Source: a virus. From it: a DNA stretch of 24,686 nt. The translations under genes were made by a program, and so were the position numbers. The DNA lies in the IMG/VR virus record IMGVR_UViG_3300037222_000126, positions 1-24,686 of that record. One strand, given 5' to 3'. Positions 1-23,550 of this stretch are shown in pieces (the first letter of the stretch is position 1; every line of letters starts with the position of its first letter). The notes beneath the pieces were generated by a model. It was given only the letters and a program-made list of their open reading frames with translations, was not told where the DNA came from and searched no databases.

Positions 1-168
1 CAGGCCAGCGTCCTTCCACCCCCAGGACGTAAGCACTTGGTGGTTCGGTGTACATCGAATCGTTTTACCAGAGGCCGTGACAAACTCGGTCAAATCACCT
101 GTGTACCAACGCCCGAGACCTTTTCGTATTCCGTAAGCGAAATTGATTGGTGAATTTCCTGGTAAACA
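1..168 (-). other. N-terminal part of an intein (Hint domain) inside the MuF gene
   Basis: Fifty-six intein residues are visible, starting with Cys319 (codon 168-166) placed exactly where MuF proteins have their conserved Cys after NPGEDxN. The signature block B is present: T358-P-N-H361-Q-V-L-T followed by GW and a Leu. TxxH is the motif that activates the first splice junction. Block A begins CLPGN. The C-terminal splice motifs and any endonuclease domain lie outside the window, so a mini-intein, a full homing intein or another Hint-type autoprocessing domain are all possible. The clean placement at a conserved structural cysteine favours a splicing intein with Cys as the +1 residue. Confidence 0.82.
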
Positions 169-1122
169 ATTAAAATCCTCACCAGGGTTGCATGGCTCCC
201 CACAGCTCATGTAGTGGGCCTGGGCCTTGGTCCTGAAATTGAAAGTCTTTCCGTCCAACTCCTTGTGGCCCTTGCGCACGTCGACGTCTCCCGCGGTGTC
301 CCAGATATACTCGCGGACCCCCGCGTCGACGAAGCGTTCTGCCCGAGCCTTAGATACGAATAAACTCGTTTCTTGTCGTGCGAGGAAGGCCGCTTTCCCT
401 GGCGTCACCTTGTACCTGTCTTCTATCCTGTCGATCAACGAGCTGAATCTGTAACCCTCCGTCGCATTTTGCGCCACGATCCCGCGAAGCTCCTGCACCA
501 TCTTGATGCTGAAATCCTTGATCGGCGGCGTGATCGAGTCGACGTACATCTTGGCGAGGTGGTCCTGCGCGCCTTGCGACGTAGTGCTGATCCCGAGGGC
601 GTCGCCGTACTCCTCGTGGAAATCCTTGCCGGTGCGAGACACCATGGCCCGAGCCGCCTTCTGCAAACCGGCGTCGTCCCTGACCTTTCCAACCATCAGG
701 CCCTTCTCCATCTCGTCGAGCCTGGCCATCAGCTTGACGTGCAGCTCGACCGCCTCGCGGCCGTACGCCTGGGCCGCCTCGAGCACTTCGGTCGGCAAAG
801 TTTGGGGGAGGGCCGCGAACGTCCCTGTCCGTTTATTGAACTTGGCTCCGTAGCCGCGCAAGACCTTGGATATGGCCGCGCTGAACTCCCCCGAAAACGT
901 GTCTTTCATGTCGTACTGCACGCGGCCCGAGCGGAGGGCGGCGGTGAGTGGATCGGACTTGGCGTTCCTGAGTTCTGCCTTGGCCGCCCGCACCTGGGCA
1001 TTGCGAGGCGCAAGAAGCGCCACGATCGGGTCGAACACGAGGCGCCGCATGAGCGCCTTGATTTCGGCCTCGATGGCCGAGTAGTCCTGCTCCTTGATGC
1101 CTATGCCTTTCATGATCTTCAC
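1..1122 (-). CDS. MuF-type phage head morphogenesis protein, interrupted by an intein, 3' end outside window
   Basis: The 374 visible codons run off the left edge. Extein residues 1-318 are largely helical. They end in the MuF/SPP1 gp7 signature: D281-x-R-K-G-H286-x3-D290-G-K-T-F, then Cys307, Cys311 and NPGEDFN, just before the conserved cysteine that in this family normally reads CRC. These minor head proteins sit in the procapsid with the portal and are needed for head assembly or DNA packaging/ejection. At residue 319 the sequence changes to an intein (separate entry). The GTG start at 1122 overlaps the upstream stop by GTGA; an ATG lies three codons further in. It follows portal and terminase in the usual order, but nine extra genes separate it from the portal. 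Family call firm; the mature protein requires splicing. Confidence 0.88.
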   Translation of the reverse strand, partial: MKIMKGIGIKEQDYSAIEAEIKALMRRLVFDPIVALLAPRNAQVRAAKAELRNAKSDPLTAALRSGRVQYDMKDTFSGEFSAAISKVLRGYGAKFNKRTGTFAALPQTLPTEVLEAAQAYGREAVELHVKLMARLDEMEKGLMVGKVRDDAGLQKAARAMVSRTGKDFHEEYGDALGISTTSQGAQDHLAKMYVDSITPPIKDFSIKMVQELRGIVAQNATEGYRFSSLIDRIEDRYKVTPGKAAFLARQETSLFVSKARAERFVDAGVREYIWDTAGDVDVRKGHKELDGKTFNFRTKAQAHYMSCGEPCNPGEDFNCLPGNSPINFAYGIRKGLGRWYTGDLTEFVTASGKTIRCTPNHQVLTSWGWKDAGL

Positions 1123-1253
1123 TTGCGTGCCCGCCTGGCCGCGCGCTTGCGGGCACGTGCCTTGAAGAACTCCGACATCAGCTTGTTGGCCGACGGGCCG
1201 GACCAGAGCGTGACTTGCTCGGGGTCGATGGGCTTGACTTGCTTGCGCTTCAC
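1119..1253 (-). CDS. Small basic protein (44 aa)
   Basis: It starts with GTG overlapping the stop of the InPase-like gene (GTGA) and its own stop overlaps the MuF start (GTGA), so it is wedged between two coupled genes. The C-terminal third is extremely basic, with alternating Arg/Lys/Ala (residues about 31-44), and the N-terminal half has a WSGPSANKLM segment. I do not recognise a family. The basic tail could bind nucleic acid, or could be the relic of a fused linker between the InPase domain and MuF. The double overlap is the main support for its being real. Confidence 0.6.
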   Translation of the reverse strand: MKRKQVKPIDPEQVTLWSGPSANKLMSEFFKARARKRAARRARK

Positions 1254-1693
1254 AGTTTCCTCGCTCCATGAAGATATCCGTTAATGAACTGGTCAACCGT
1301 CATGGTTGAAACCCCGCCGATGCCCCATGGCGGTCCGTGACGGCGGTATGCCAGCACGGCGTCTCCATGGCTTGCGAAGTCCAGCATCACCTTGTCCTCA
1401 TCCAGTTCGCCGGTCTTAGTAAGTTGGTGGACCACGTACACGAGAGACGCCCCTGTCGCTGGACCCAAGTACAAATCCACGCCATCGCCGTCGTGGGGCG
1501 ATCTGGTGCCGGGGAATTCTCCGTACGGGAATTCGTACTTGTGCTCCCAATAATTTCCATCTTCGTCGTACCCCGACTTCGTGTCTCCCGCCTCGATCTC
1601 AACCTTGACCGGTACGCCATGCCATGACGTTGCTCGCTTGCCAGGGCGGTAGTTCCACTTGGCCGCCCTGTCTGCTGGTATCCGGTATATCAC
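1250..1693 (-). CDS. InPase-like domain protein (147 aa)
   Basis: The protein resembles the 'inorganic pyrophosphatase' (InPase) domain found in phage and mobile-element polyvalent proteins. It has a GD-x-K-SGYDEDG segment (residues 36-46), a central HDGDGVDLYLGP motif (67-78) with clustered acidic residues, ELDEDKVMLDF (96-106), and a C-terminal helix after a GIGGVSTMT turn. Such acidic clusters would fit metal binding, but the activity is inferred from the family. In many phages this domain is fused to MuF or to large polyproteins; here it is separate, one small gene upstream of MuF. The GTG start at 1693 overlaps the upstream stop by GTGA. The much longer open frame upstream of 1693 is a shadow of the signal-peptide gene. 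Confidence 0.75.
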   Translation of the reverse strand: MIYRIPADRAAKWNYRPGKRATSWHGVPVKVEIEAGDTKSGYDEDGNYWEHKYEFPYGEFPGTRSPHDGDGVDLYLGPATGASLVYVVHQLTKTGELDEDKVMLDFASHGDAVLAYRRHGPPWGIGGVSTMTVDQFINGYLHGARKL

Positions 1694-2551: not shown

Positions 2552-5068
2552 CTAGTTCAGCCTGTACTTCGCGATGGCCTCGGCCATGGCGTCCTGGAGA
2601 GACTTGCCGCCGTTGACGGCCGCGGTCACGTCGGCGTAAATCTTGCCGATGGACATGATGTTGATCTCGACACCATTGCCTTGCTTGTAGTATTCCTGCT
2701 CGATATCCTTGCGGAGCTGCTTGTCTTCGCGGGGACCATTCTCCATCGAGTACCGGAACGCACCGCGGGTGACTCCGGCTTGGCGGGAGTTGTGGTGCTC
2801 GAAGCCCTTGATTAACTTGTGGGCTGTCATGTCGAAGCCCCGGCAGTGCGCGCACTCTGTAGACCCGGCGCGGATGCACTCGTCGAGTTCTGCGCCGTGC
2901 ATCTGCTTGCCGCAGCCCTCGCAGCGGGGGTCGCCCTCGGCGTTCTCGAGCTCCGGCCCCTTCAGAATGTATCCCCTGCTGTCGTATGTCCTGCCGCATG
3001 GGCAGTGAACGTCCTTGCCGTCGCCGAGGACCGATGCCGGGGCGTTGCCGCACGGGCAGTTGATGCGGCCGACTCCGGGCTTCCCGGCTTTGTCCTCGCT
3101 CCATGATCCATCCCTAACATCGTCGCGGACCCAAGCGCGCTTAGTGAAGCCGTTCTTCCTCTCGCTGTACGCCCCGCACTTCTTCACGTCGAAGCACTGG
3201 AGGCACGATGTATCATTACCCTGCCCGTTGTCCTGGTGGTTGGCCTGTGAGTGGCCGCACTGGCACTCGCCTTGGGCATTGTTCACCGACTTCGGCTCGT
3301 CCTTCTCGATCTGCAGCGCATCATGCACGTCCTGGCTCAGCTCCGTCCACGGGAACCTGGACAGCTCGATGTCCTGACCGGCGCCCTCCAGCCAGTCTGC
3401 GCGCTCCTGCTGGTCTGCCACGTCCCAGGAGTCGGGGCCGAGGTGGCCGGAGTTGGACAGGCCCTTGGTGAAAACGTGGGCGCACGAGTCGGTCAGGCAG
3501 GCATACTGCGTGCCCGTGGCGTCGCTGCCCTGCCAGGCACTCCTGCCCTTGCACTTGGGGCAGGGGGGGTTCTGGCCGGCGTTGCCCATCGCCTTCTTCG
3601 CGGCGGCTCCAGTCTTGCCGCAAATCTCGCAGGACTCGTCGGAGTTCTTTCTCGACTTCTCAGTCATCGCGGCGGATTCCTTGTCCCAGCACTTCTCGCA
3701 AAGCGCCTTTGCCCCACCGCTCGGCTTGTAGCCCAATCCGGAAGGCTGGCCGCATGTGGCACAGGGCACGTCCTCGGCGTTTATCTTTGTTACCGTCCCT
3801 CCCTTGGCCCCGGCCTCCTCGCCGCCGCGGGCTTGGACGTCGGCGTTCTTGTGCTCTGTGGACTTCCATGTGGCCTTGCAAGAATTGCATTCCCTCATAC
3901 CTCCACCAAAATCACATGATCCCTTAGCGCCGCACTCCGGGCATGTCCAACCGTTGTCGTAGTGAGGGCTGGAGTTGTTAATATCACCCCACGACTCTCC
4001 AGGACCTTTTTTCTGATCAAAACACTTGCGACACAGGTCTGGGTTTCCGCTTCCACCGTGCCATGAATCAGCTGCCGTGCCGCTTCCCCGCATTGGGAGA
4101 GTGCGTAATTCTCCTTCTTTCCCACATGCGTCACATGCCCCCCTGGCGTTCTTGCTCGCCCAAATCTTGTGGGCGTCGGGGTACGGTCCCTTGGTTGGCT
4201 CGGAGGGGTGCTCGCCATCGTTCTTATGACCGGACTTCTTGACCTCGATGGCCGAGTCGTATCCATCGTGGCTGATCAGCGATCGTTTTACCGTGTCGGC
4301 GTCCATGCCATCGTCGTAGAACACGGTGTCGATGACCTTGCCGTGGAGGATGACGTTCCAGCCGATGCCGGAGGCGTTCTTCAGAGCGCTCTTGTACGAC
4401 GAGTGCCCGGTGTCTAACTTATGGCTCCTAACGTCTCCGTCTGTCGCCAGCTTCGCACCGCACTCGTCGCACTTCCACGGCCCCTTGTGCTCGGCGAGGC
4501 CGGGAGTCTTGTACTCGGCGTACGCGTTCTTCAACGTCGCCGCCCCCTTCGCCTCCTCCACCGTCACGCCCAAGGTATTGGCCAGCACTCCCCACGCCTC
4601 GGCCACCGAGTTGGCCCGGACGTTCATGCGCTCGCCGGTCTTGTCCTCGAAGTCGTAGTCCTTGTTCTCGAGCGTGCCTGATCCCGTGCATCGCTCGCAC
4701 TCGCCACCGTCTGCCGACTGCCCGGTGCCGTCGCAGCGCGGGCACTCGTCGGGGGAGGCGTTCTCCGTCTCATCCTCACGCTTGGCCGTCGTGCTCTGCT
4801 GGTCCTGCTGGTATCCCACTGGGCTCTCATTGCGAACACCGCACCCGTTGCACCGACCGTTCCACTTCTCGGCGTCCTCGTGGCCGCAGGCCTTGCACTT
4901 GTTGGCCAGCCCCGGGCTCCCCACCGCCCCATCCGGGCCGTAAGGCTCCGGCTCATCCGGCGCGATGCCATGCAGGCGCGCGGCCATCCTGGCGGCGACG
5001 GAGGTGCCGAACTTCATGGCACCCGCCTTGATGCCCCTCACGACGTCGTCGATGCTCAGTTTGGCCAT
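2552..5068 (-). CDS. Giant multi-zinc-ribbon protein (838 aa)
   Basis: I do not recognise this as a whole. It is a chain of about ten Cys-rich modules. Paired CxxC knuckles lie at C58/61-C73/76, C109/112-C124/127 (DnaJ-like spacing), C312/315-C346/349, C376/379-C394/397, C436/439-C457/460, C480/483 with C503/506 and C524/529, C602/604-C622/625, C671/673-C689/691 and C716/719-C739/742. Residues 200-222 form a C2H2 finger. Non-zinc modules lie at about 136-190, 235-276 (ending SLISHDGYD), 543-590 and a C-terminal helical tail 778-838. Most modules are introduced by Asn-Ala or Asn-Ser within a few residues. It lies between portal and MuF genes, so a virion or assembly role is possible. Whether it binds DNA, RNA or protein is unknown. 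Confidence 0.8.
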   Translation of the reverse strand: MAKLSIDDVVRGIKAGAMKFGTSVAARMAARLHGIAPDEPEPYGPDGAVGSPGLANKCKACGHEDAEKWNGRCNGCGVRNESPVGYQQDQQSTTAKREDETENASPDECPRCDGTGQSADGGECERCTGSGTLENKDYDFEDKTGERMNVRANSVAEAWGVLANTLGVTVEEAKGAATLKNAYAEYKTPGLAEHKGPWKCDECGAKLATDGDVRSHKLDTGHSSYKSALKNASGIGWNVILHGKVIDTVFYDDGMDADTVKRSLISHDGYDSAIEVKKSGHKNDGEHPSEPTKGPYPDAHKIWASKNARGACDACGKEGELRTLPMRGSGTAADSWHGGSGNPDLCRKCFDQKKGPGESWGDINNSSPHYDNGWTCPECGAKGSCDFGGGMRECNSCKATWKSTEHKNADVQARGGEEAGAKGGTVTKINAEDVPCATCGQPSGLGYKPSGGAKALCEKCWDKESAAMTEKSRKNSDESCEICGKTGAAAKKAMGNAGQNPPCPKCKGRSAWQGSDATGTQYACLTDSCAHVFTKGLSNSGHLGPDSWDVADQQERADWLEGAGQDIELSRFPWTELSQDVHDALQIEKDEPKSVNNAQGECQCGHSQANHQDNGQGNDTSCLQCFDVKKCGAYSERKNGFTKRAWVRDDVRDGSWSEDKAGKPGVGRINCPCGNAPASVLGDGKDVHCPCGRTYDSRGYILKGPELENAEGDPRCEGCGKQMHGAELDECIRAGSTECAHCRGFDMTAHKLIKGFEHHNSRQAGVTRGAFRYSMENGPREDKQLRKDIEQEYYKQGNGVEINIMSIGKIYADVTAAVNGGKSLQDAMAEAIAKYRLN

Positions 5069-5080
5069 GTCGATGTTCTC

Positions 5081-5344
5081 CTAGTGCCTTACGCTCGCCT
5101 TCAGCTTGTCCAGCGCTTCCATCCCCGCCTTGATAATCTGCGGGTCCCTCGGTGCTGCGGCCAAGTTGGCCTTATGGTTGTCTGCCAAGATGATCTTGGC
5201 CATCTCGATGAGGCCAAGCGCGACCACCATGTTGGCGGGCGCATTCACCGATATCGCCCCAGTCGTTTGATCGACCAGGATGTGGACCTCTCCGGCTATC
5301 AGTTGCTGATCTTTCTCCATGTGTGTCTCCCTCCCCAGGGTCAT
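5081..5344 (-). CDS. Hypothetical phage protein (87 aa)
   Basis: The ATG at 5344 overlaps the upstream stop by ATGA and has GAGG close upstream. A second ATG at 5320 (79-aa product) has a good GGGAGG about nine bases upstream, so either could be used. The sequence has a beta-rich N-terminal part (GEVHILVDQTTGAISVNAP) followed by a helix (MVVALGLIEMAKIIL) and a C-terminal helical segment. No cysteines or membrane segment are present. I do not recognise a family. Its position between the two multi-zinc-ribbon genes suggests it belongs to the same functional block. Confidence 0.7.
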   Translation of the reverse strand: MTLGRETHMEKDQQLIAGEVHILVDQTTGAISVNAPANMVVALGLIEMAKIILADNHKANLAAAPRDPQIIKAGMEALDKLKASVRH

Positions 5345-5505
5345 TTGTTCCTCACATCAAATCCTTCGTTGCAGTCGTCGCAGAAGTACCTGAGCACGTT
5401 TCCGACCTCGCGCAAGTACCGGGTGTTGCTGCCGCCGCACTTAGGGCACGTGACCGTGTCGTTCTTGATCGTGCCGTACTTGCGCTGGCCTGTGGAGATG
5501 CTCAT
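5341..5505 (-). CDS. Single zinc-ribbon mini-protein (54 aa)
   Basis: The ATG at 5505 overlaps the stop of the 561-aa gene by ATGA; the longer upstream frame overlaps that gene and is not real. The protein is essentially one zinc ribbon: CPKC at residues 20-23, a beta hairpin, then CDDC at 42-45. This matches the module that is concatenated in the two large neighbouring proteins, so it looks like a stand-alone unit of the same kind. The partner (nucleic acid or protein) cannot be read from the sequence. Confidence 0.8.
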   Translation of the reverse strand: MSISTGQRKYGTIKNDTVTCPKCGGSNTRYLREVGNVLRYFCDDCNEGFDVRNK

Positions 5506-7187
5506 GACTTGATCAGCCTCTGCTTCGCCTGCTCGGGGAGGCGGGTCCACGACGTCACGCTGTACTTGGCGATGTCGTCTGGATGGCTCCCGGATGTCTT
5601 GAGCCAGCTCTCCCTTTCTTCGTACGTTGCCTGAATCCACGCGTGCTCCGCGTTCTCCGCGTCGGTCTTGTACGACCAGTCGTCGGGCGTCTTGCCCTCG
5701 TTCTGCCTGGGCGACCCGTACTTGGCCGAGCCTCTGGCCGTGCCGGAGATGTGGGTGGGGTCGCCGGCGTTGTGTGATGCGTTGCTTCTATTCATTCTGT
5801 CGCACTCTGCCTGGCACTCTGATCTAGAAGCGAACCAATCTCGTGTATCAACAGACTGTCCCAGCTTCGGATACCATCCGGCGGCAACGGTGTCGCCTTC
5901 CTTGAATTCTGTTGGCTCCCAGCGGTTCGCGTTCTCCACCACGTCGTCAATATCCGACCCTCCGCATCCCGGGCAACCGCGGTCTGAGAACGACGCTTTC
6001 TCGGCCGCAGCGGCGTCCTTGAACTTGCGGCCGCATTCGAGGCACTTCCAGGCGTTCTCTCTCGTCGAGTTCTCCACCACCTTCTCAATCTTGTGGATCA
6101 CCGTCGGCTGTACGTAATGCTGTTGGAAGTACGCCTCGATCTGGGAGTCGGACATCTCGCCCATGATGAGATCGACCTGCAGGCCCTTCAGATACGGGCC
6201 GTCATAGGTGACGCGGTAGCGGGGGCTGCGGGCGTTCTCAAGCGGCACCTCGTCCTGCATAGGCTCGATGTCTTCGGAGGGCGGCTCGGCGTTGGGGCGG
6301 AGCGACATGCCTCGCTCCAGCCCGGAGTTGTCGCGGCCGATGCGGGGGGAGGAGTTTTGTGCAGCGTATTTCCCTGGACACATTGGGCACTCATCGCCTG
6401 GCTTAGCCGTAAGGTCGAGACCGGCTTTATGGCCGCACTCTAAGCAGGCAATGTTCGTCTCGATAGCGTTCTCTCTAGCCTCGGCTTCCTTAAGAAGTTC
6501 TGCCCATATACCATTGGGGTCTTCCTTCACCTTCTGGCGCAGCCTGGTAATCGTTTCGGCATGCCTCTCTTTTCTCTGCTTCTCTATCTCTGCCGCCTTT
6601 TTGGCCTTGGCGTCATCGCCGGCAGTGCCGAATGCGTTGTCGCGGCCGATGCGGGGGGAGGAATTGTCGGAGTTCTGTAGACGGCGATTACGCTCTGCAA
6701 GGTCTACGATATCGCCGCTAGGCACCATGCGGAACTTGCCGTCGCCGAGAGGGTCTGCTCCATGATCGCCTTTCTTTTTTAGGTCCACCCTCTTTTCAAC
6801 TGGCTTATAATCCTCGTCGAGTTCATAACCGAATGGCCTGATCTCTTTCCCTGTCTTGTCGAACTTGGCGTTCTCCTTCGGAGCATGCCAAAAACATTCG
6901 TCGCACAATCTTTGCCCATCAGCGCCTGCCGTAACGTGTGATCCACAGCTCGGGCACTTGTCGGTGACGTTCTTCATTCCCGCGCATTTGATGCACAACT
7001 CTTTTGTATGGATGCCATCATCGGCCTTTACCGTCTGGAGCATGTCTGATCCAACTCGCTTATTGCACTTGTCACAGGTATCGAGTGATCCACCGCCGCC
7101 TTCGACGTCTGCGTTCTCCATCTCTCCCAGCGCCTTCCTGCCCCGCTCGATCCCTTCCGCCGCCTTGTCCCAGAATTTCCAGGTCAT
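5502..7187 (-). CDS. Multi-zinc-ribbon modular protein (561 aa)
   Basis: The ATG at 7187 overlaps the upstream stop by ATGA. It carries four zinc modules: C38/41-C65/68, C79/82-C95/98, C248/251-C267/270 and C382/385-C405/408. Between them are a charged coiled-coil-like helix (about 192-243), a beta module (321-372), a module beginning NRWEPTEF (421-466), and a C-terminal helical module (about 516-560) that resembles residues 547-590 of the 838-aa protein. At least 16 Asn-Ala/Asn-Ser dipeptides occur, mostly at module edges. A ten-residue segment NSSPRIGRDN appears twice (175-184 and 278-287). Not a recognised family; probably built by duplication and shuffling of small modules. It sits between portal and MuF. 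Confidence 0.8.
   Translation of the reverse strand: MTWKFWDKAAEGIERGRKALGEMENADVEGGGGSLDTCDKCNKRVGSDMLQTVKADDGIHTKELCIKCAGMKNVTDKCPSCGSHVTAGADGQRLCDECFWHAPKENAKFDKTGKEIRPFGYELDEDYKPVEKRVDLKKKGDHGADPLGDGKFRMVPSGDIVDLAERNRRLQNSDNSSPRIGRDNAFGTAGDDAKAKKAAEIEKQRKERHAETITRLRQKVKEDPNGIWAELLKEAEARENAIETNIACLECGHKAGLDLTAKPGDECPMCPGKYAAQNSSPRIGRDNSGLERGMSLRPNAEPPSEDIEPMQDEVPLENARSPRYRVTYDGPYLKGLQVDLIMGEMSDSQIEAYFQQHYVQPTVIHKIEKVVENSTRENAWKCLECGRKFKDAAAAEKASFSDRGCPGCGGSDIDDVVENANRWEPTEFKEGDTVAAGWYPKLGQSVDTRDWFASRSECQAECDRMNRSNASHNAGDPTHISGTARGSAKYGSPRQNEGKTPDDWSYKTDAENAEHAWIQATYEERESWLKTSGSHPDDIAKYSVTSWTRLPEQAKQRLIKS
6327..6356. repeat. 30-bp direct repeat, copy 1 (in 561-aa gene)
   Basis: This copy matches 6636-6665 at 29 of 30 positions. 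On the minus strand both encode NSSPRIGRDN in the same frame, at the edge of a module in the multi-zinc-ribbon protein. Near-identity at the DNA level, including third codon positions, points to a recent duplication or conversion. Confidence 0.9.
6636..6665. repeat. 30-bp direct repeat, copy 2 (in 561-aa gene)
   Basis: Partner of 6327-6356, 309 bases apart. Recombination between the copies would delete exactly 103 codons and keep the reading frame, removing the coiled-coil-like helix and one zinc ribbon. Confidence 0.9.
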
Positions 7188-7438: not shown

Positions 7439-7620
7439 CGGTCAGCCGCCACTATGCGGGCCAAGCCGCCCCTGCGCCAGCCGATGCCCACCGACTCGTC
7501 GGGGCCGGTGCGCCTCACTGGCTCGGCCTGGCACTGCCTCGTCATGCGCTGGGCCACGGCCACGTTATGCAAGGCGTGGCGCGACTCGCTGCGATCTTGA
7601 CAGTATTCCTTTATGTTCAT
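7435..7620 (-). CDS. Hypothetical protein (61 aa)
   Basis: A short, charged, Arg-rich protein with no recognised motif. It is supported by ATGA overlaps at both ends (with the portal gene upstream and the 84-aa gene downstream), the arrangement seen throughout this operon. The C-terminal region (SVGIGWRRGGLARIV) contains Gly and Arg. It could also be a translational coupler with little function of its own. Confidence 0.6.
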   Translation of the reverse strand: MNIKEYCQDRSESRHALHNVAVAQRMTRQCQAEPVRRTGPDESVGIGWRRGGLARIVAADR

Positions 7621-9131
7621 ACCAGGGGCACCATCCTTTGGTTCTTCTTGGGTTGCATGTGGGCAGTCTTCTTAGACGGCTCGGCGAGCTTGGCTCCCGC
7701 GGGCTGGGCCTCTGTCTTGCTCTCGCCTGTTCCTTGCGGAGGCGTCTTGTCGGTGTCACCGGTCTCCTGTTCTTGCGTGGCCGGGAAGTCATCGAGCAGG
7801 CCCTTCTCGGCCTTGAGCGGCACGGCGGATAGCTCTTCGGTCTTGTACGCCTTCCCCAACTCCTCGCTGGTCATCAGGCTCAGGCTGTACAGGGCGTTGT
7901 AGCGGTTTGCCTTGGATGACTTGACCTGCTCCTCGTCCAGCGCGCTCATGGTGCGGAGCGGTCGGAACTTGAAGTCCACCTTGAAGTCCTCTCCCCAAAG
8001 GTGGCGCACGCCGAGCTTGAGGACCTTCTTGATCACGTGCTTCATTGGCTCTCGAACTTCGGACTCGACGAGGCCGTTGTAGTTCTCGAAGTCGTCCTCG
8101 CCGGACGTGAGTCCAGCGGCGGGTATGCCAAACAGCTTGGACATCGGCATGCGGAACGCGGAGGCCAGGCCCATGCGGTTTTCCTTCATGATCTCGGCGA
8201 GGCCGGAGAACGTGAGCTGCTTCGTCTCGTACTTGTCCTCGCTGTCCATGATCAACGCGTTCTGGAAGTTCTTGATCTGGTTCATTAAGGCGATGCGCTT
8301 GGACGTGATCGCCGTGCCGGTGGACGATGCTAGCTGGCCGTTGAAACCCTTGAGCGCGAACACGTCCACCTTGGCCTCTTCGAGGATCGCGTAGATGACA
8401 TTGCGAGTCCTGAGGAACATGTTGAAATCCTCGATGGCCCGCTCAAGCTCCGACATCCCCCAGTCTGACAGCTGCGCCCTGCGGGTCCACGGGGCGCGCT
8501 TGCCCAGGATCGTGATTACCCGGGAGGCGTCTAGTGTCTTTCCGTAATACCCGTAGTGACCGGACGACGGTATCCGGCGGTCGCACGTAAGCTCCCACCG
8601 GCACGCGTCGTACAGATCGATCTTGCCGTCCTTGATCTCGTCGCCAAGAGGGGACTCGGTATCTGACTCTGTGTTGATGACCAATGCTCCGCCGCCGAAC
8701 AGCCGGGCCCAGATAAACGCGTCCCCGATGCGAGCGAGGACGTCGCCATCCTCAAGCCACTCCTGCAGTTCGTCGACATCGTCTTGGTCAAGCTCTCCCT
8801 CGGAGCTGATGTCGATCCCGCCACGCAGTGCGTCAAGCACCGGCATGTCGATCGCTGTCTGAAGAAGGCCATGCGTGGTGTAAAGGTACATCAGATCGGT
8901 CCAAAGCAATGTTAACGGCGCGAACTGTGAATTTTGAAAAGTTGGATTGAACGAAGTAATTGGAGACTGTCCCATCCCACCGCCAAATCCGCCATTGGCG
9001 CCAAGTGCCGAAGCAAGGCTTCCCATCGAATTCTCGAGCGTCTTCCCAGTCATCTCTATCTTTGACCTAAGCTTGGCATTCTGAGCAGACAATCGGCGGT
9101 TGGCCGAGGCGGTTGGCCTTTTATTCACCAT
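7617..9131 (-). CDS. Phage portal protein, DUF1073 family (504 aa)
   Basis: This forms the dodecameric portal at one capsid vertex through which TerL drives DNA. The recognisable family pattern runs from a Gly/Ser-rich N-terminus, through LLWTDLMYLYTTHGLLQTAID and PVLDALRGGIDI, to the GGGALVI strand, the RVITILGKRAPW segment and the conserved helix with ENRMGLASAFRMPMSKLFG (tunnel/clip region), then FENYNGLVESEVREPM. A charged, Pro/Lys-rich tail ends the protein. Length is normal for the family. The start ATG lies inside the last codons of the GIY-YIG gene, with AGGATGG just upstream as ribosome site. Gene order TerS-TerL-portal is standard. Confidence 0.93.
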   Translation of the reverse strand: MVNKRPTASANRRLSAQNAKLRSKIEMTGKTLENSMGSLASALGANGGFGGGMGQSPITSFNPTFQNSQFAPLTLLWTDLMYLYTTHGLLQTAIDMPVLDALRGGIDISSEGELDQDDVDELQEWLEDGDVLARIGDAFIWARLFGGGALVINTESDTESPLGDEIKDGKIDLYDACRWELTCDRRIPSSGHYGYYGKTLDASRVITILGKRAPWTRRAQLSDWGMSELERAIEDFNMFLRTRNVIYAILEEAKVDVFALKGFNGQLASSTGTAITSKRIALMNQIKNFQNALIMDSEDKYETKQLTFSGLAEIMKENRMGLASAFRMPMSKLFGIPAAGLTSGEDDFENYNGLVESEVREPMKHVIKKVLKLGVRHLWGEDFKVDFKFRPLRTMSALDEEQVKSSKANRYNALYSLSLMTSEELGKAYKTEELSAVPLKAEKGLLDDFPATQEQETGDTDKTPPQGTGESKTEAQPAGAKLAEPSKKTAHMQPKKNQRMVPLV

Positions 9132-9876
9132 TTGCCATCCTGTCTACCCACGCCATTGCCCTTTTGTGCCCTGCCAGCTTCATCTTGGCTATCGTCTCTG
9201 GCGTATTTTTGCGACCCTTTGTTTTTGCAACCCGCTTAGCGATATGATCTTCAGTGTGCTTGCGTCCAAGATTGGCCGCCAGCAGTTTCGCCTTGTGCTC
9301 TGGCGATAGCACGAATCCCTTCCTGGCTGCGCTTATCTTGGCGCGCGTTTCAGGTGAAAGCACCTTGCCAAGATTCGCTTGCCTGCAGCGTTCCTTGCCT
9401 TCAGGCGATACGTGCGGCTTCCCAAGACGGGAAGCGCTCATATTCGCCCTCGCTTTTGGAGAAGCCTTTTTCCCTGTATTGATTTCACGAAGATGATCTT
9501 TTTGAGATTGCGACATTCTCCTATTCTTTTGAGCTTTTCCTATTTTTGCATTGTGCTCAGGAGTTCTTTCGACTCCGGAAAAACTGCTATCACCGCCGCT
9601 GGAAATGTTGTACATGCGATCTGCGCCATACTCGGCGCGATAGTCTGCGATGTTCTGTATTTCACGTTGGTTTAACTCTTCTTCCGAAAAAGCCCAGTCG
9701 ATCACGCTTACGATGAACGATCCTCGCCCGTGCTTTTTGACTGCACGCTTCAAAATCGTCCCGCTCCCCAAGTACGACGGATGCCACAATCCGCCCTGCT
9801 TGCAACGCCGCTTGCCGACATACATCCTGCCGTTCACCAGGTTCACCGTCTCGTACACGTATCCCCAGGGCTTCAT
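9121..9876 (-). CDS. GIY-YIG homing endonuclease with NUMOD3 repeats (251 aa)
   Basis: The GIY-YIG catalytic domain occupies about residues 1-100: GYVYETVN (5-12) and MYVGKRRC stand for the GIY and YIG elements, and a downstream Glu lies in ELNQREIQNI. The rest is a string of about six NUMOD3 DNA-binding motifs of the form SPExxAKxSxAxxGK. This is the architecture of T4 Seg-type free-standing homing endonucleases, which cut a homologous phage lacking the gene and copy themselves in. Its ATG overlaps the upstream stop by ATGA and its last 11 bases overlap the portal start, so it supplies the portal's ribosome site. AT-richer than its neighbours, consistent with transfer. Confidence 0.92.
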   Translation of the reverse strand: MKPWGYVYETVNLVNGRMYVGKRRCKQGGLWHPSYLGSGTILKRAVKKHGRGSFIVSVIDWAFSEEELNQREIQNIADYRAEYGADRMYNISSGGDSSFSGVERTPEHNAKIGKAQKNRRMSQSQKDHLREINTGKKASPKARANMSASRLGKPHVSPEGKERCRQANLGKVLSPETRAKISAARKGFVLSPEHKAKLLAANLGRKHTEDHIAKRVAKTKGRKNTPETIAKMKLAGHKRAMAWVDRMANGE

Positions 9877-15822: not shown

Positions 15823-16434
15823 TCACGCCCATCTGTGCTTCCGCGCGTAGATATAATGCTTTTGACAAAATGTTTTCGCGTATTGAAAACGATCGCACTC
15901 ACTCATCGAACATTTCTTTATATTGGCTGGAGGCTTTTGAAAACTACGTACGTGGGCCATGAATGCGTCACGTTCTTTCTTCGGCAGTTTCGGATACTTC
16001 CGTCTTGGCCGGTGTTCTTTGATATGCTCGGCACGAGTCATAATCTCAAGATTCTCGATTCGGTTGTCCTTCTTGTCGCCATTGATATGGTGGACGATTT
16101 CACTCGAATCCAACAATCGGCCAAGGTGTTGTTCCATGACGAAACGATGGTGGAGCTTTTGTTTACGAGCGTACTTACCGCTTGTAAGCATAAGATACCC
16201 ATGAGATGATGCGGATATCCCGCCTTTCCAGTTCGGGCAGTCTTTCCCGATCCTTTTATTTTCAGGCCTTCTGGATGACGCTTCAAAGCATTTGCGTGAA
16301 TGGAATTTTCTTCTATCCTCATCATGCGGATATAATGCGTGGAATTTTATCCCGCATTCCAAGCACACCAAAGACTTCCTGGGTTTTAGGTTTGTCTTGT
16401 GCCATTTCTTGAACCGGCCGTTATTCTTTCTCAT
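15823..16434 (-). CDS. HNH homing endonuclease (203 aa)
   Basis: The ATG at 16434 overlaps the stop of the Cas4-like gene (ATGA). An N-terminal zinc finger (CLECGIKF ... CFEAS) and a CPNWKGG segment precede the HNH core: LHHRFVMEQHLGR, then IVHHINGDKKDNRIENLEI, the ββα-metal motif with HH, N and the ENLE pattern. A C-terminal zinc-like segment (KKCSMSECDRF, CQKHY) may bind DNA. This layout is typical of free-standing phage HNH homing enzymes. It is AT-rich compared with neighbours and lies beside a damaged zinc-knuckle gene, so it probably inserted here. Confidence 0.9.
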   Translation of the reverse strand: MRKNNGRFKKWHKTNLKPRKSLVCLECGIKFHALYPHDEDRRKFHSRKCFEASSRRPENKRIGKDCPNWKGGISASSHGYLMLTSGKYARKQKLHHRFVMEQHLGRLLDSSEIVHHINGDKKDNRIENLEIMTRAEHIKEHRPRRKYPKLPKKERDAFMAHVRSFQKPPANIKKCSMSECDRFQYAKTFCQKHYIYARKHRWA

Positions 16435-17147
16435 TTCCAACTCGGGCAAAAACTTTTGAAGTCACAGAAACCACAGGCGCGTTCCGACGGCGTCGGCTCA
16501 AACTCCTTGGCGCTGATACGAGCCGCGGTCTCCACGATGCGCATCTTGAGCGCCGAGACCAGAGCCTCGGAGTGCCGCTTGCTTGACTGCATCGTGAGCG
16601 ACGGCACGTGGTACAGCGACAGCTTGGCGACTCTCCCCACCCCCATGGCCTCGACTCCGAGCTGGTACATCGTTAATTGCGGGTCCTCTTCGATACGGCC
16701 CGTGGCCAGTGACTTGCCCGTCTTCCAGTCGATCACGTGGATCGCGCCGGACTTGCTCGCGACCACCATGTCGATATACCCGATGACCCGCACGTGGTCC
16801 ACGGTGAAATCTAAGGCGTACTCAACGCAGAATGGTTGAGTCCATCCTTTGGCGTGCTTCTTATAGAACGCCGTGATCATGGCCTCGCCGTCACGCTTGG
16901 CCTTGGCCTCTGCCTCCGGTGTGGCATATCCAGCCCGCTGCCATTTCCGCTTGTAGGTCTTGAGGATGTCCTCGAGCGTGGGGCATTCGTCGCCGGAGTA
17001 CATGAACTCGAGGGCCGAGTGGATGCTTCGACCAAATGAAAAAAATGATTTTGGTTTCTGGGGAATTCTATCGACCCGACTGTATCGGTATTTTAACGGA
17101 CATTCTAGATAAGTGGACAGAGACGAGTGAGATAATTTAATTGCCAT
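16431..17147 (-). CDS. Cas4/RecB-like PD-(D/E)XK nuclease (238 aa)
   Basis: The family pattern is complete. An LSHSSLSTYLECPLKYRY start holds Cys16, followed by GRSIHSALEFM (His and Glu of motif I), GYIDMV (D126), VIDWKTGK (D140, K142), QLTMYQLG (Q157-Y161) and a C-terminal CGFCDFKSFC (C225, C228, C234). With Cys16 these would form the Fe-S cluster of AddB/Cas4-type exonucleases. It likely acts on DNA ends in recombination, replication or host DNA degradation. A strong AAGGAGG ribosome site lies in the end of the upstream endonuclease gene. Confidence 0.9.
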   Translation of the reverse strand: MAIKLSHSSLSTYLECPLKYRYSRVDRIPQKPKSFFSFGRSIHSALEFMYSGDECPTLEDILKTYKRKWQRAGYATPEAEAKAKRDGEAMITAFYKKHAKGWTQPFCVEYALDFTVDHVRVIGYIDMVVASKSGAIHVIDWKTGKSLATGRIEEDPQLTMYQLGVEAMGVGRVAKLSLYHVPSLTMQSSKRHSEALVSALKMRIVETAARISAKEFEPTPSERACGFCDFKSFCPSWK

Positions 17148-17733
17148 TATGCCTCCTTAAATATTTAATTGATGCAAGAAGAATACTGATGTCTTCTTGA
17201 ATGGCGCCAAGAAATCGATTATGAAGATGGCACAGAAGTCCACGCACCTTCCCTGTCTTATGATTATGGTCAACGCAGAGTCTTCGCCCATGCGTGTTTG
17301 GCTTCTCACAAATCGCGCAAACACCTTTCTGCTTTTTCAATATAAAATTATACTGCTCAACGGATATCCCGTATCCTTTTAGAGCCCTCTTCCACTGAGT
17401 TAATCTGCCACGAGTGGAAGTATAGTATCTAAGAACTTTTGCTTTTGCCTTTGGAGATGACTCGTATCGACGCCTTGCCGCGATGCCCTCTGGAGAATGA
17501 GCGTACGCGTATGCGTACGATTTTCTTTTTGATTTCCATTCCGAAGTCTTGGGTTTTATCTCCCATCGTTTCAGCGCATCTCTTCCTGCTTTTGATCTTC
17601 TGTAATTAAGATTGTATTTTTTACGACAAGTATCGCAGTACCCACTTAGAAGATTTCTCCCATTACTTTTAATTCCTTCTACTCTGAATCTATTATTTCT
17701 TTTAACAATACGACAGCACGAGCATTTCTTCAC
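17137..17733 (-). CDS. Endonuclease VII-like HNH endonuclease (198 aa)
   Basis: The C-terminal region has the recombination endonuclease VII signature: GVCAICEKP, then LCVDHNHKTGKVRGLLCHLHN and FLGAIQED, with the two CxxC/CxxH zinc pairs and the DHNH catalytic core. The N-terminus has its own zinc pair (CSCC, CDTC) and a long basic, Tyr/Ala-rich middle that may bind DNA. Such stand-alone versions usually behave as homing endonucleases rather than true Holliday-junction resolvases. The GTG start overlaps the ThyX stop (GTGA) and the last 11 bases overlap the Cas4-like gene. Clearly AT-rich, so probably acquired. Confidence 0.9.
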   Translation of the reverse strand: MKKCSCCRIVKRNNRFRVEGIKSNGRNLLSGYCDTCRKKYNLNYRRSKAGRDALKRWEIKPKTSEWKSKRKSYAYAYAHSPEGIAARRRYESSPKAKAKVLRYYTSTRGRLTQWKRALKGYGISVEQYNFILKKQKGVCAICEKPNTHGRRLCVDHNHKTGKVRGLLCHLHNRFLGAIQEDISILLASIKYLRRHNGN

Positions 17734-22663: not shown

Positions 22664-22810
22664 TCACTTCCTTCCCCGAGCCTTGGCTTCCGAGCATTCA
22701 TCCCGGATGCATTGGTCAATGAATCTTCGGTTGCGGCCATACTCATCATGGCGGAGCAGCCAGTCCAACCTCTCCTTGTCGCTGATCTTCCCGGCCCGGG
22801 GGTTCTTCAT
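22664..22810 (-). CDS. Small basic helical protein (48 aa)
   Basis: The ATG at 22810 overlaps the upstream stop (ATGA). A basic start (KNPRAGKISDKERLDWLLRHDEYGRNRR) is followed by FIDQCIRDECSEAKARGRK. It looks like one or two charged helices. No family recognised. Confidence 0.6.
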   Translation of the reverse strand: MKNPRAGKISDKERLDWLLRHDEYGRNRRFIDQCIRDECSEAKARGRK

Positions 22811-22982
22811 AGGACCTCCGCGACGAGACGGACCCGAGACGATAGCCCTTTGGGCCAACCATTCTTAGGCCGGACTTTCAGAACGGTCATTGCTCTCATC
22901 ATGTAGACCGTCACGCCTTCTTCGTCCCATCCGATGTCACCAACGGCCACCACCACCCGCCGCGCCTTCTTGTTCTTAGGTT

Positions 22983-22986
<4 letters not shown>
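22807..22986 (-). CDS. MKPKNKK-type small protein, copy B (59 aa)
   Basis: The ATG overlaps the stop of the Ser-Gly repeat frame (ATGA). The first 14 residues (MKPKNKKARRVVVA) are identical to those of the copy at 23461, then the two diverge completely; here VGDIGWDEEGVTVYMMRAMTVLKVRPKNGW follows, which looks like a small beta-domain. This copy is probably the ancestral one, as its sequence is protein-like throughout. Confidence 0.6.
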
Positions 22987-23281
<295 letters not shown>

Positions 23282-23285
<4 letters not shown>

Positions 23286-23461
23286 AACGGTCTATCTCTT
23301 ATCCGTCTTCCCGAAAGAGCGGATTGCAGTTCGTTCTCAGGCACCAGCACCGGATGCTTCGGAACGCCTAAGCCGCAATCTATCCAAGCCGAAAGCAGGG
23401 ACGCCTCTAGCCTCCCGCTGGCCACCACCACCCGCCGCGCCTTCTTGTTCTTAGGTTTCAT
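23282..23461 (-). CDS. MKPKNKK-type small protein, copy A (59 aa, chimeric)
   Basis: The ATG overlaps the stop of the short Ser-Gly gene (ATGA). It shares its first 14 residues with copy B; the rest (SGRLEASLLSAWIDCGLG ... LSGRRIRDRPL) is unrelated. Its last codons come from a duplicated version of the end of the 89-aa gene read in another frame. It therefore looks like a chimera made by the tandem duplication, and may or may not be functional. Confidence 0.45.
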
Positions 23462-23550
23462 AGCGACCCCGACCTCGACCAGGAGCTCGACCCCGACCAC
23501 GACCCCGACCCCGACCCCGACCACTTATTTTTCTGGCTTCTGGTAGCCAT
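23458..23550 (-). CDS. Ser-Gly dipeptide-repeat protein, short copy (30 aa)
   Basis: Begins MATRSQKNKW, a near match to the long copy's MTIRSQKNKW, and has 10 hexamer units instead of 45, ending SLY-less ...RSGSL with ATGA overlap to the next gene. The pair shows that the repeat changed length after duplication. Tiny, so low confidence as a functional gene. Confidence 0.4.
   Translation of the reverse strand: MATRSQKNKWSGSGSGSWSGSSSWSRSGSL
23465..23524. repeat. Hexanucleotide tandem repeat, 10 units, second tract
   Basis: The first eight units are identical in order to the first eight of the 45-unit tract, including the odd GACCAG and GAGCTC units, which shows common origin. The flank 23420-23464 is identical to 22945-22989, and the other flank (23525-23590) resembles 23260-23330. 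Confidence 0.92.

Follow-up and report, generated by a model that had tools for sequence, protein, structure and literature searches.

Background

In phage T4 the internal head proteins (IPI and others) are small and highly variable, share a short capsid targeting sequence, are cut by a protease and are packaged with the DNA (PMC3012670); after injection one of these, IPI*, blocks a restriction enzyme (PMC3012670). In the SPN3US/phiKZ-type phages a single prohead protease processes many head proteins at one short motif, which some of the propeptides contain more than once (PMC10052503), while the polyvalent proteins described by Iyer et al. (2017) are multi-domain proteins encoded beside head genes that are predicted to be packaged and injected, with DdrB of phage P1 being processed before packaging (PMC5512222). 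Our search of the open-licence literature found no paper that deals with the cleavage specificity of DUF2213 proteins, with cleavage behind Asn in phage heads, or with head polyproteins made of zinc modules. Here we compare with these systems a locus that encodes two long chains of small modules, P0002 and P0003, among the head genes of a phage.

Gene order and composition of the window

The window, by which we mean the whole analysed virus record of 24,686 bases, has 203 program-listed ORFs, many of them long and overlapping. The order of genes on the minus strand is terminase, portal, an 84-aa ORF, P0003 (561 aa), a 54-aa ribbon protein, an 87-aa ORF, P0002 (838 aa), an InlB-repeat protein, an InPase domain and MuF (Table 1), such that the interval from portal to MuF also holds the 84-aa, 87-aa, InlB-repeat and InPase ORFs. 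The original prediction had placed about ten zinc modules in P0002 and four in P0003 between portal and MuF, and these counts proved correct (16 and 8 CxxC pairs, respectively, with PF06381 and PF04233 matches on the flanks); its reading of the 54-aa neighbor as a single zinc ribbon was borne out by the four Cys residues and by a match of residues 1-50 to the Pfam family Zn_ribbon_PaaD (PF23451; 28.0 bits, cut-off 27). Also in keeping with its view of P0002 and P0003 as chains of modules, a search for a full-length match to one known family found none: no Pfam model scored above its cut-off in either protein, the best of the zinc-ribbon and treble-clef families reaching 17.9 bits (P0002) and 19.7 bits (P0003), under their curated cut-offs; P0003 had zero tblastn matches in 50,697 phage records, and the tblastn matches to P0002 in phage records were confined to a 46-aa module and its adjoining stretch. 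Direct queries of viral_contigs with P0002, P0003 or the single portal returned no relatives, a PADLOC search returned nothing, and the sole match in a PDB sequence search was 1mey (E 0.095). Neither protein has an enzymatic Pfam or PHROG domain over threshold, and searches of the same two collections identified no metallopeptidase (MPTase) domain of their own.

Table 1. Coordinates of the features of the window; residue numbers are those of the protein named.
Feature	Position	Strand	Remarks
MuF, truncated by the contig end within an intein-like insertion	1..1230	minus	PF04233, E 2.2e-12
InPase domain ORF, directly beside MuF	1250..1690	minus	PF18823, E 5.5e-27; polyvalent-protein type
P0002, 838-aa zinc-module concatemer	2552..5068 (ORF 5068-2552)	minus	43 Cys, 16 CxxC pairs, 16 N[A/S]
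P0002 module 598-639, CxCGHxxxxH...C...C zinc module (predicted)	3152..3277	minus	same type multi-copy in relatives
P0002 module 540-597, non-zinc	3278..3451	minus	by eye like the P0003 C-terminal module (W..EER..WL), from sequence only
P0002 segment 232-307 with 46-aa non-zinc module	4148..4375	minus	phrog_6353
P0002 module 182-231, CxxC...H...H finger	4376..4525	minus	homolog L153 340-383, E 2.7e-13
P0002 segment 104-153, DnaJ-like CxxCxGxG zinc knuckle	4610..4759	minus	PF00684 E 4.4e-4, below cut-off
54-aa stand-alone cargo-like protein	5341..5505	minus	STGQRKYGT resembles the tag (9.7 bits) and is followed by IKN and a single four-Cys zinc ribbon
P0003, 561-aa concatemer	5502..7187 (ORF 7187-5502)	minus	18 Cys, 8 CxxC pairs, 16 N[A/S]
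P0003 module 513-561, non-zinc	5505..5651	minus	
P0003 segment 474-512 carrying the tag	5652..5768	minus	N|A at either border
Scaffold C-terminal tag copy in P0003, residues 484-492, around ARGSAKYGS	5712..5738	minus	20.9 bits, 0/1000 shuffles
P0003 module 379-419, four-Cys ribbon	5931..6053	minus	similar module in L086, E 0.0039
P0003 module 319-373, non-zinc	6069..6233	minus	homolog L056 concatemer 436-490, E 1.9e-14
P0003 segment 26-106, two ribbons (8 Cys)	6870..7112	minus	
Portal	7617..9131	minus	PF06381, E 1.6e-53; N-terminal LEN|SMGSL

Several other features of the window are recorded here as observations in their own right. The region 1690-2544, between the concatemers and MuF, encodes a signal-peptide-like protein with divergent InlB B-repeat domains. 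By eye, ORFs at 9121-9876, 15823-16449 and 17137-17733 look like GIY-YIG and HNH homing endonucleases, and positions 22807-23525 are a long simple-sequence stretch with frames reading VGVGVG or SRSGSG. At the MuF end (minus strand, 1-130) DFN is followed by an intein-like sequence, CLPGNSPINF...TPNHQVLTSWGW, to which PF14890 matches weakly; several related loci with a MuF of 600-640 aa have [H/S]N|CRC near its end, which suggests that an intein occupies this position there too.

Modules of P0002 and P0003

Homologs of individual modules occur in other contexts (the related loci L153 and L056, and phrog_6353), which shows P0002 and P0003 to be real genes. The L153 homolog of P0002 182-231 is bordered by N|A and N|S (the bar marking the border), and P0003 319-373 and its counterpart at L056 436-490 are each bordered by N|[A/S]. 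Among the more diverged matches were a module in the L062 scaffold that is similar to P0002 104-153 (E 0.006) and a weak match of L152 486-533 to the C-terminal module of P0003 (E 0.62). The phrog_6353 profile matches P0002 223-278 (E 1.5e-10), and the 46-aa P0002 module corresponds to a stand-alone protein of 47-48 aa in Pseudomonas phages; free-standing copies of a P0002 module are encoded by Pakpunavirus and Nankokuvirus as well as by many metagenomic phages. Across loci L008-L055 we observed a 46-aa WNVxLNGKxIDTVFF...SLINHDGY domain to be a widespread, mostly stand-alone phage mini-protein. A match in phage K5 that spanned two ORFs had been considered as two neighboring small genes counterpart to two fused modules, and was rejected when the first ORF failed on reading. 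Within P0003 there is an exact nine-residue repeat, SSPRIGRDN, at 176-184 and 279-287, with A or S next each time.

From conserved Cys and His ligands we predict zinc binding for the modules that carry them. In the CGH-type module the ligands C5, C7, H9, H14, C25 and C34 are invariant in 12 copies; the AlphaFold2 model of the one such module we modelled was poor (mean pLDDT 64, no PDB match).

A border motif in the two chains

The dipeptide N[A/S] occurs 16 times in P0002 against 6.7 expected (p = 0.0004) and 16 times in P0003 against 3.8 expected (0 of 5000 shuffles), and is mostly found at module borders, where a module usually ends in xN and the next starts with A or S, e.g., PELEN|AEGDPRCEGCG and VVEN|STREN|AWKCLECG. 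The repeated border motif, [E/L/M/R]-x-N|[A/S], was absent from the original prediction and explains the layout of the concatemers. With the window proteins alone E at P4 is not enriched and the P3 preference is suggestive (p 0.08). Some N[A/S] lie within modules, as in ECN|SC, and these are probably not used as cut sites; individual N|[A/S] sites are uncertain because the motif is short. In eight chains 8 of the 160 N[A/S] sites fall within 3 aa of a Cys, where 33 would be expected by chance, and division at N[A/S] leaves 49 segments with at least four Cys, against 38.4 by chance (p 0.0005). A pure composition effect was ruled out by the shuffles and by the reversed dipeptide.

The motif in head proteins of related loci

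Among named phages, Bdellovibrio phage phi1422 has the closest portal (33% identity); its gp48, encoded right after the MuF-type head protein, has 11 N[A/S] against 3.1 expected; phi1422 gp46 and the 84-aa and 87-aa ORFs of the window were without the motif and tag signals. Relatives were found solely by portal-alignment scans, which gave 137 loci in three sets (80 viral loci, 16 from genomes and 41 further viral), with the gene order terminase, portal, MuF, protease/scaffold, an ORF mostly of ~155 aa, and capsid protein. A prophage-like head cluster of this family is present at L142 10001-17305, in Dyadobacter psychrotolerans AR-3-6, which might serve as a laboratory model.

The N[A/S] pattern was first noticed in set one and was repeated in the other two sets. 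Observed over expected counts in the scaffold part of the protease were 2.90x (z 16.3), 2.77x (z 6.7) and 2.88x (z 11.9) for the three sets; in the first 45 residues of the capsid protein they were 4.02x, 3.15x and 2.88x, against 0.96x, 0.79x and 1.18x in its remainder and 0.70x, 0.57x and 0.78x in the terminase. The reversed [A/S]N dipeptide showed no comparable pattern in the scaffold and capsid parts (0.58-1.25x). Counts at homologous positions in relatives are not fully independent, and we therefore give the three locus sets and the conservation of single columns: 44 of 57 non-redundant capsid proteins have their N|[A/S] site in the same alignment column (the other 13 lack it there), just before the conserved core and after a variable leader of 4-116 residues, e.g., ..SVLN|SNGDLDSTGLGYQYT and ..QIMN|SLGYEIDMTTLT, and the N-terminal site of the portal occupies one column in 66 of 104 relatives, with LEN|SMGSL of the window resembling it. 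The portal excess of N[A/S] extends beyond the N-terminus.

Concatemers and scaffolds prefer similar residues ahead of the site, relative to N[other] in the same proteins: E at P4, L/M/R/V/I at P3 and E/K/Q at P2. The P3 preference stands out most (p 9e-5 for concatemers, 2e-12 for scaffolds and 2e-9 for capsid N-termini, each compared with the remaining Asn residues of those proteins). In the proteases and capsid proteins of outgroup phages with distant portals (KpVB3, LAPP1, Vibrio 1.029.O and RHEph05) a strong N|[A/S] excess was for the most part not seen; the outgroup BgManors32 had 6 N[A/S] against 3.1 expected.

Protease of the relatives

A protein of the relatives matches the head maturation protease families phrog_2229, phrog_530 and DUF2213 (PF09979). 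As the window ends in MuF, the protease of the window phage itself lies beyond the contig end, and its capsid protein is likewise out of sight. An AlphaFold2 model of the L062 protease from 46 sequences gave a domain (residues 30-185) with pLDDT mostly above 90, for which VIA-align gave Z 9.5 to T4 gp21 (5jbl) and Z 9.3 (4v08) and lower to herpesvirus assemblin-type proteases, MCE/Mla proteins reaching Z 6.2. With Foldseek alone MCE/Mla proteins came first, at E 0.004 or worse and none significant, a ranking we set aside as VIA-align put gp21 and the herpesvirus proteases on top. Herpesvirus proteases have a His-Ser-His triad, and H85, S137 and H168, which are invariant in the protease alignment, fit a triad of this type. 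Based on the model, the protease in the head cluster of the relatives appears to have the herpesvirus/T4 gp21 fold.

A scaffold-like tag in P0003

The scaffold C-termini mostly end like ARGKxRYGS (consensus ARGxxRYGS), and in the L062 scaffold AlphaFold2 modelled the tag as a confident helix (387-398). A matrix built from 52 scaffold C-termini was scored on 8609 ORFs, both it and the motif being derived from the sequences of these loci; ARGSAKYGS of P0003 was the best non-protease match among all these ORFs, and we infer that it targets P0003 to the prohead core. At 15 bits or more the tag was found in 13 of 380 sense ORFs of the head region, against 0 of 1275 on the other strand and 1 of 1064 sense ORFs elsewhere (p 8e-11), and at 11 bits CxxC was present in 13 of 26 tagged ORFs against 32 of 354 (p 6e-7). 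In several small tagged ORFs the tag leads into xEN|A or a similar border, behind which a zinc module begins, e.g., GQRRYGAKN|AGEKCAACGH in L062 and GQKRWGSEN|AEPK in L063; the 54-aa window protein shares this plan with a weaker tag. The P0002 candidate KAGAMKFGT is weak (6.4 bits), and the best match elsewhere in P0002 (9.3 bits, p 0.17) is not significant; by matrix score the 1799-aa L154 protein has no tag.

Concatemers in related phages

Most relatives have no large concatemer. Those found were of 774 aa in L056, 704 aa in L152 and 1465 aa in L153 (27 CxxC, 31 N[A/S]), together with two in L154, the first of 1799 aa (31 CxxC, 33 N[A/S]) and the second of 1591 aa (15 CxxC, 33 N[A/S]) with an InPase domain at its start, as judged by reading and by phage matches. 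In L072, and similarly in L078, zinc modules with N|S borders precede the protease in one chain, and in relatives zinc modules are fused to or lie inside scaffold proteins. The same modules recur in related phages in different order and context and with the same borders, the CGH-type module, of which there are many copies, often measuring 38 aa from border to border; this lends weight to the suggestion of the original prediction that such chains grow by module shuffling.

Proposed head-cargo polyproteins and the alternatives

We consider it likely that P0002 and P0003 are head-cargo polyproteins, co-assembled into the prohead, cut by its protease and packaged. The concatemers look built for packing into the head and cutting because the predicted cut motif is common to scaffold, capsid and portal, and because P0003 has a close copy of the scaffold tag. 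In outline, the concatemers would be expressed together with the head genes and enter the core of the growing prohead, at least P0003 by means of its copy of the scaffold tag; the prohead protease, once activated, would recognize [E]-[L/M/R]-x-N|[A/S] and cut behind its Asn in scaffold, capsid leader, portal leader and polyprotein alike; and this cutting would release mini-proteins of ~40-50 aa, many of them zinc-binding. As DNA enters, the modules would stay in the head as small zinc proteins, which may be injected with the DNA. The modular build, the border motif shared with scaffold, capsid and portal, the P0003 tag, the shuffling and the fold of the relatives' protease can be read from sequence, and they leave room for a new head-loading route, to which we give even odds: one polyprotein of interchangeable zinc mini-proteins, with a copied scaffold tag, diced at Asn|Ala/Ser, that would deliver dozens of them to the next host.

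That the two chains are degenerate or chance ORFs without function is extremely improbable; the many long and overlapping ORFs on the program's list could suggest it, but homologous modules occur in other phages at E 1e-10 to 1e-14 with matching borders, and Cys spacing is kept. We also think it improbable that they are uncut multi-zinc platforms, working at full length as binders of DNA or host proteins or as structural parts of the head, with N[A/S] as a habitual linker of this phage family. This would accord with how common multi-finger proteins are in biology, with the lack of a known cut product and with the odd places of some N[A/S]; against it, N[A/S] is concentrated in the scaffold and in the start of the capsid protein rather than in the capsid remainder or terminase, a single aligned position ahead of the capsid core carries it, and zinc modules are found N-terminal to the protease in the same chain. 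In place of the long working platforms of the original prediction, the evidence points to precursors cut into single modules. Its proposal that the proteins are packaged with the virion gains support from the scaffold tag and from the protease motif shared with head proteins.

In a variant of the cargo explanation the concatemers would act in assembly only: they would serve as additional scaffold, which is cut and leaves the head before the DNA is packaged, and their zinc modules would aid core assembly and not be delivered to the host. We rate this possibility well below the cargo reading and above uncut platforms. It accords with the scaffold signals that the concatemers share and with the zinc modules fused to or inside scaffold proteins, but the variable module content, the free-standing phage mini-protein and the InPase domain suit cargo better, and most relatives do without a large concatemer. 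We favor delivery over a pure assembly role because of this great variation in content and because a free-standing phage protein and an InPase domain are part of it; of the steps set out above for head-cargo polyproteins, delivery is the least certain.

Comparison with known systems

If head-cargo polyproteins are the correct explanation, then polyprotein processing, familiar in animal and plant viruses, would also be used by a tailed phage, for the cargo that it packages. The tag and cut site would make a readable code for head-entering proteins of a wide, mostly uncultured phage group, the N-termini of mature capsid and portal proteins are predicted to the residue, and many unstudied zinc mini-proteins become candidate early host-takeover or anti-defence factors.

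The closest known principle is that of the capsid-targeted internal proteins of T4, the likeness being a putative targeting tag together with a prohead protease of the same fold, here that of the relatives as modelled. In T4 each protein is single and has its own targeting sequence, whereas here there are up to ~30 modules per chain; the tag here resembles the scaffold C-terminus and the predicted cut follows Asn, whereas gp21 of T4 cuts after Glu ([L/I]xE), and packaging and injection, which occur in T4, would here be predicted steps. The likeness to SPN3US is that of one short motif on many head substrates, but the SPN3US motif is AxE and its substrates lose propeptides, unlike the chains of mini-domains in these concatemers. 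With the polyvalent proteins the concatemer context has the InPase domain in common, as a neighbor in the window and fused only in L154; polyvalent proteins carry enzymes and often their own metallopeptidase, whereas the concatemers consist mainly of zinc mini-modules and have no peptidase of their own. The DUF2213 families (phrog_2229, phrog_530, PF09979) are part of the relatives' head cluster, where they have a scaffold-like tail, and their outgroup members are mostly without the N|[A/S] excess.
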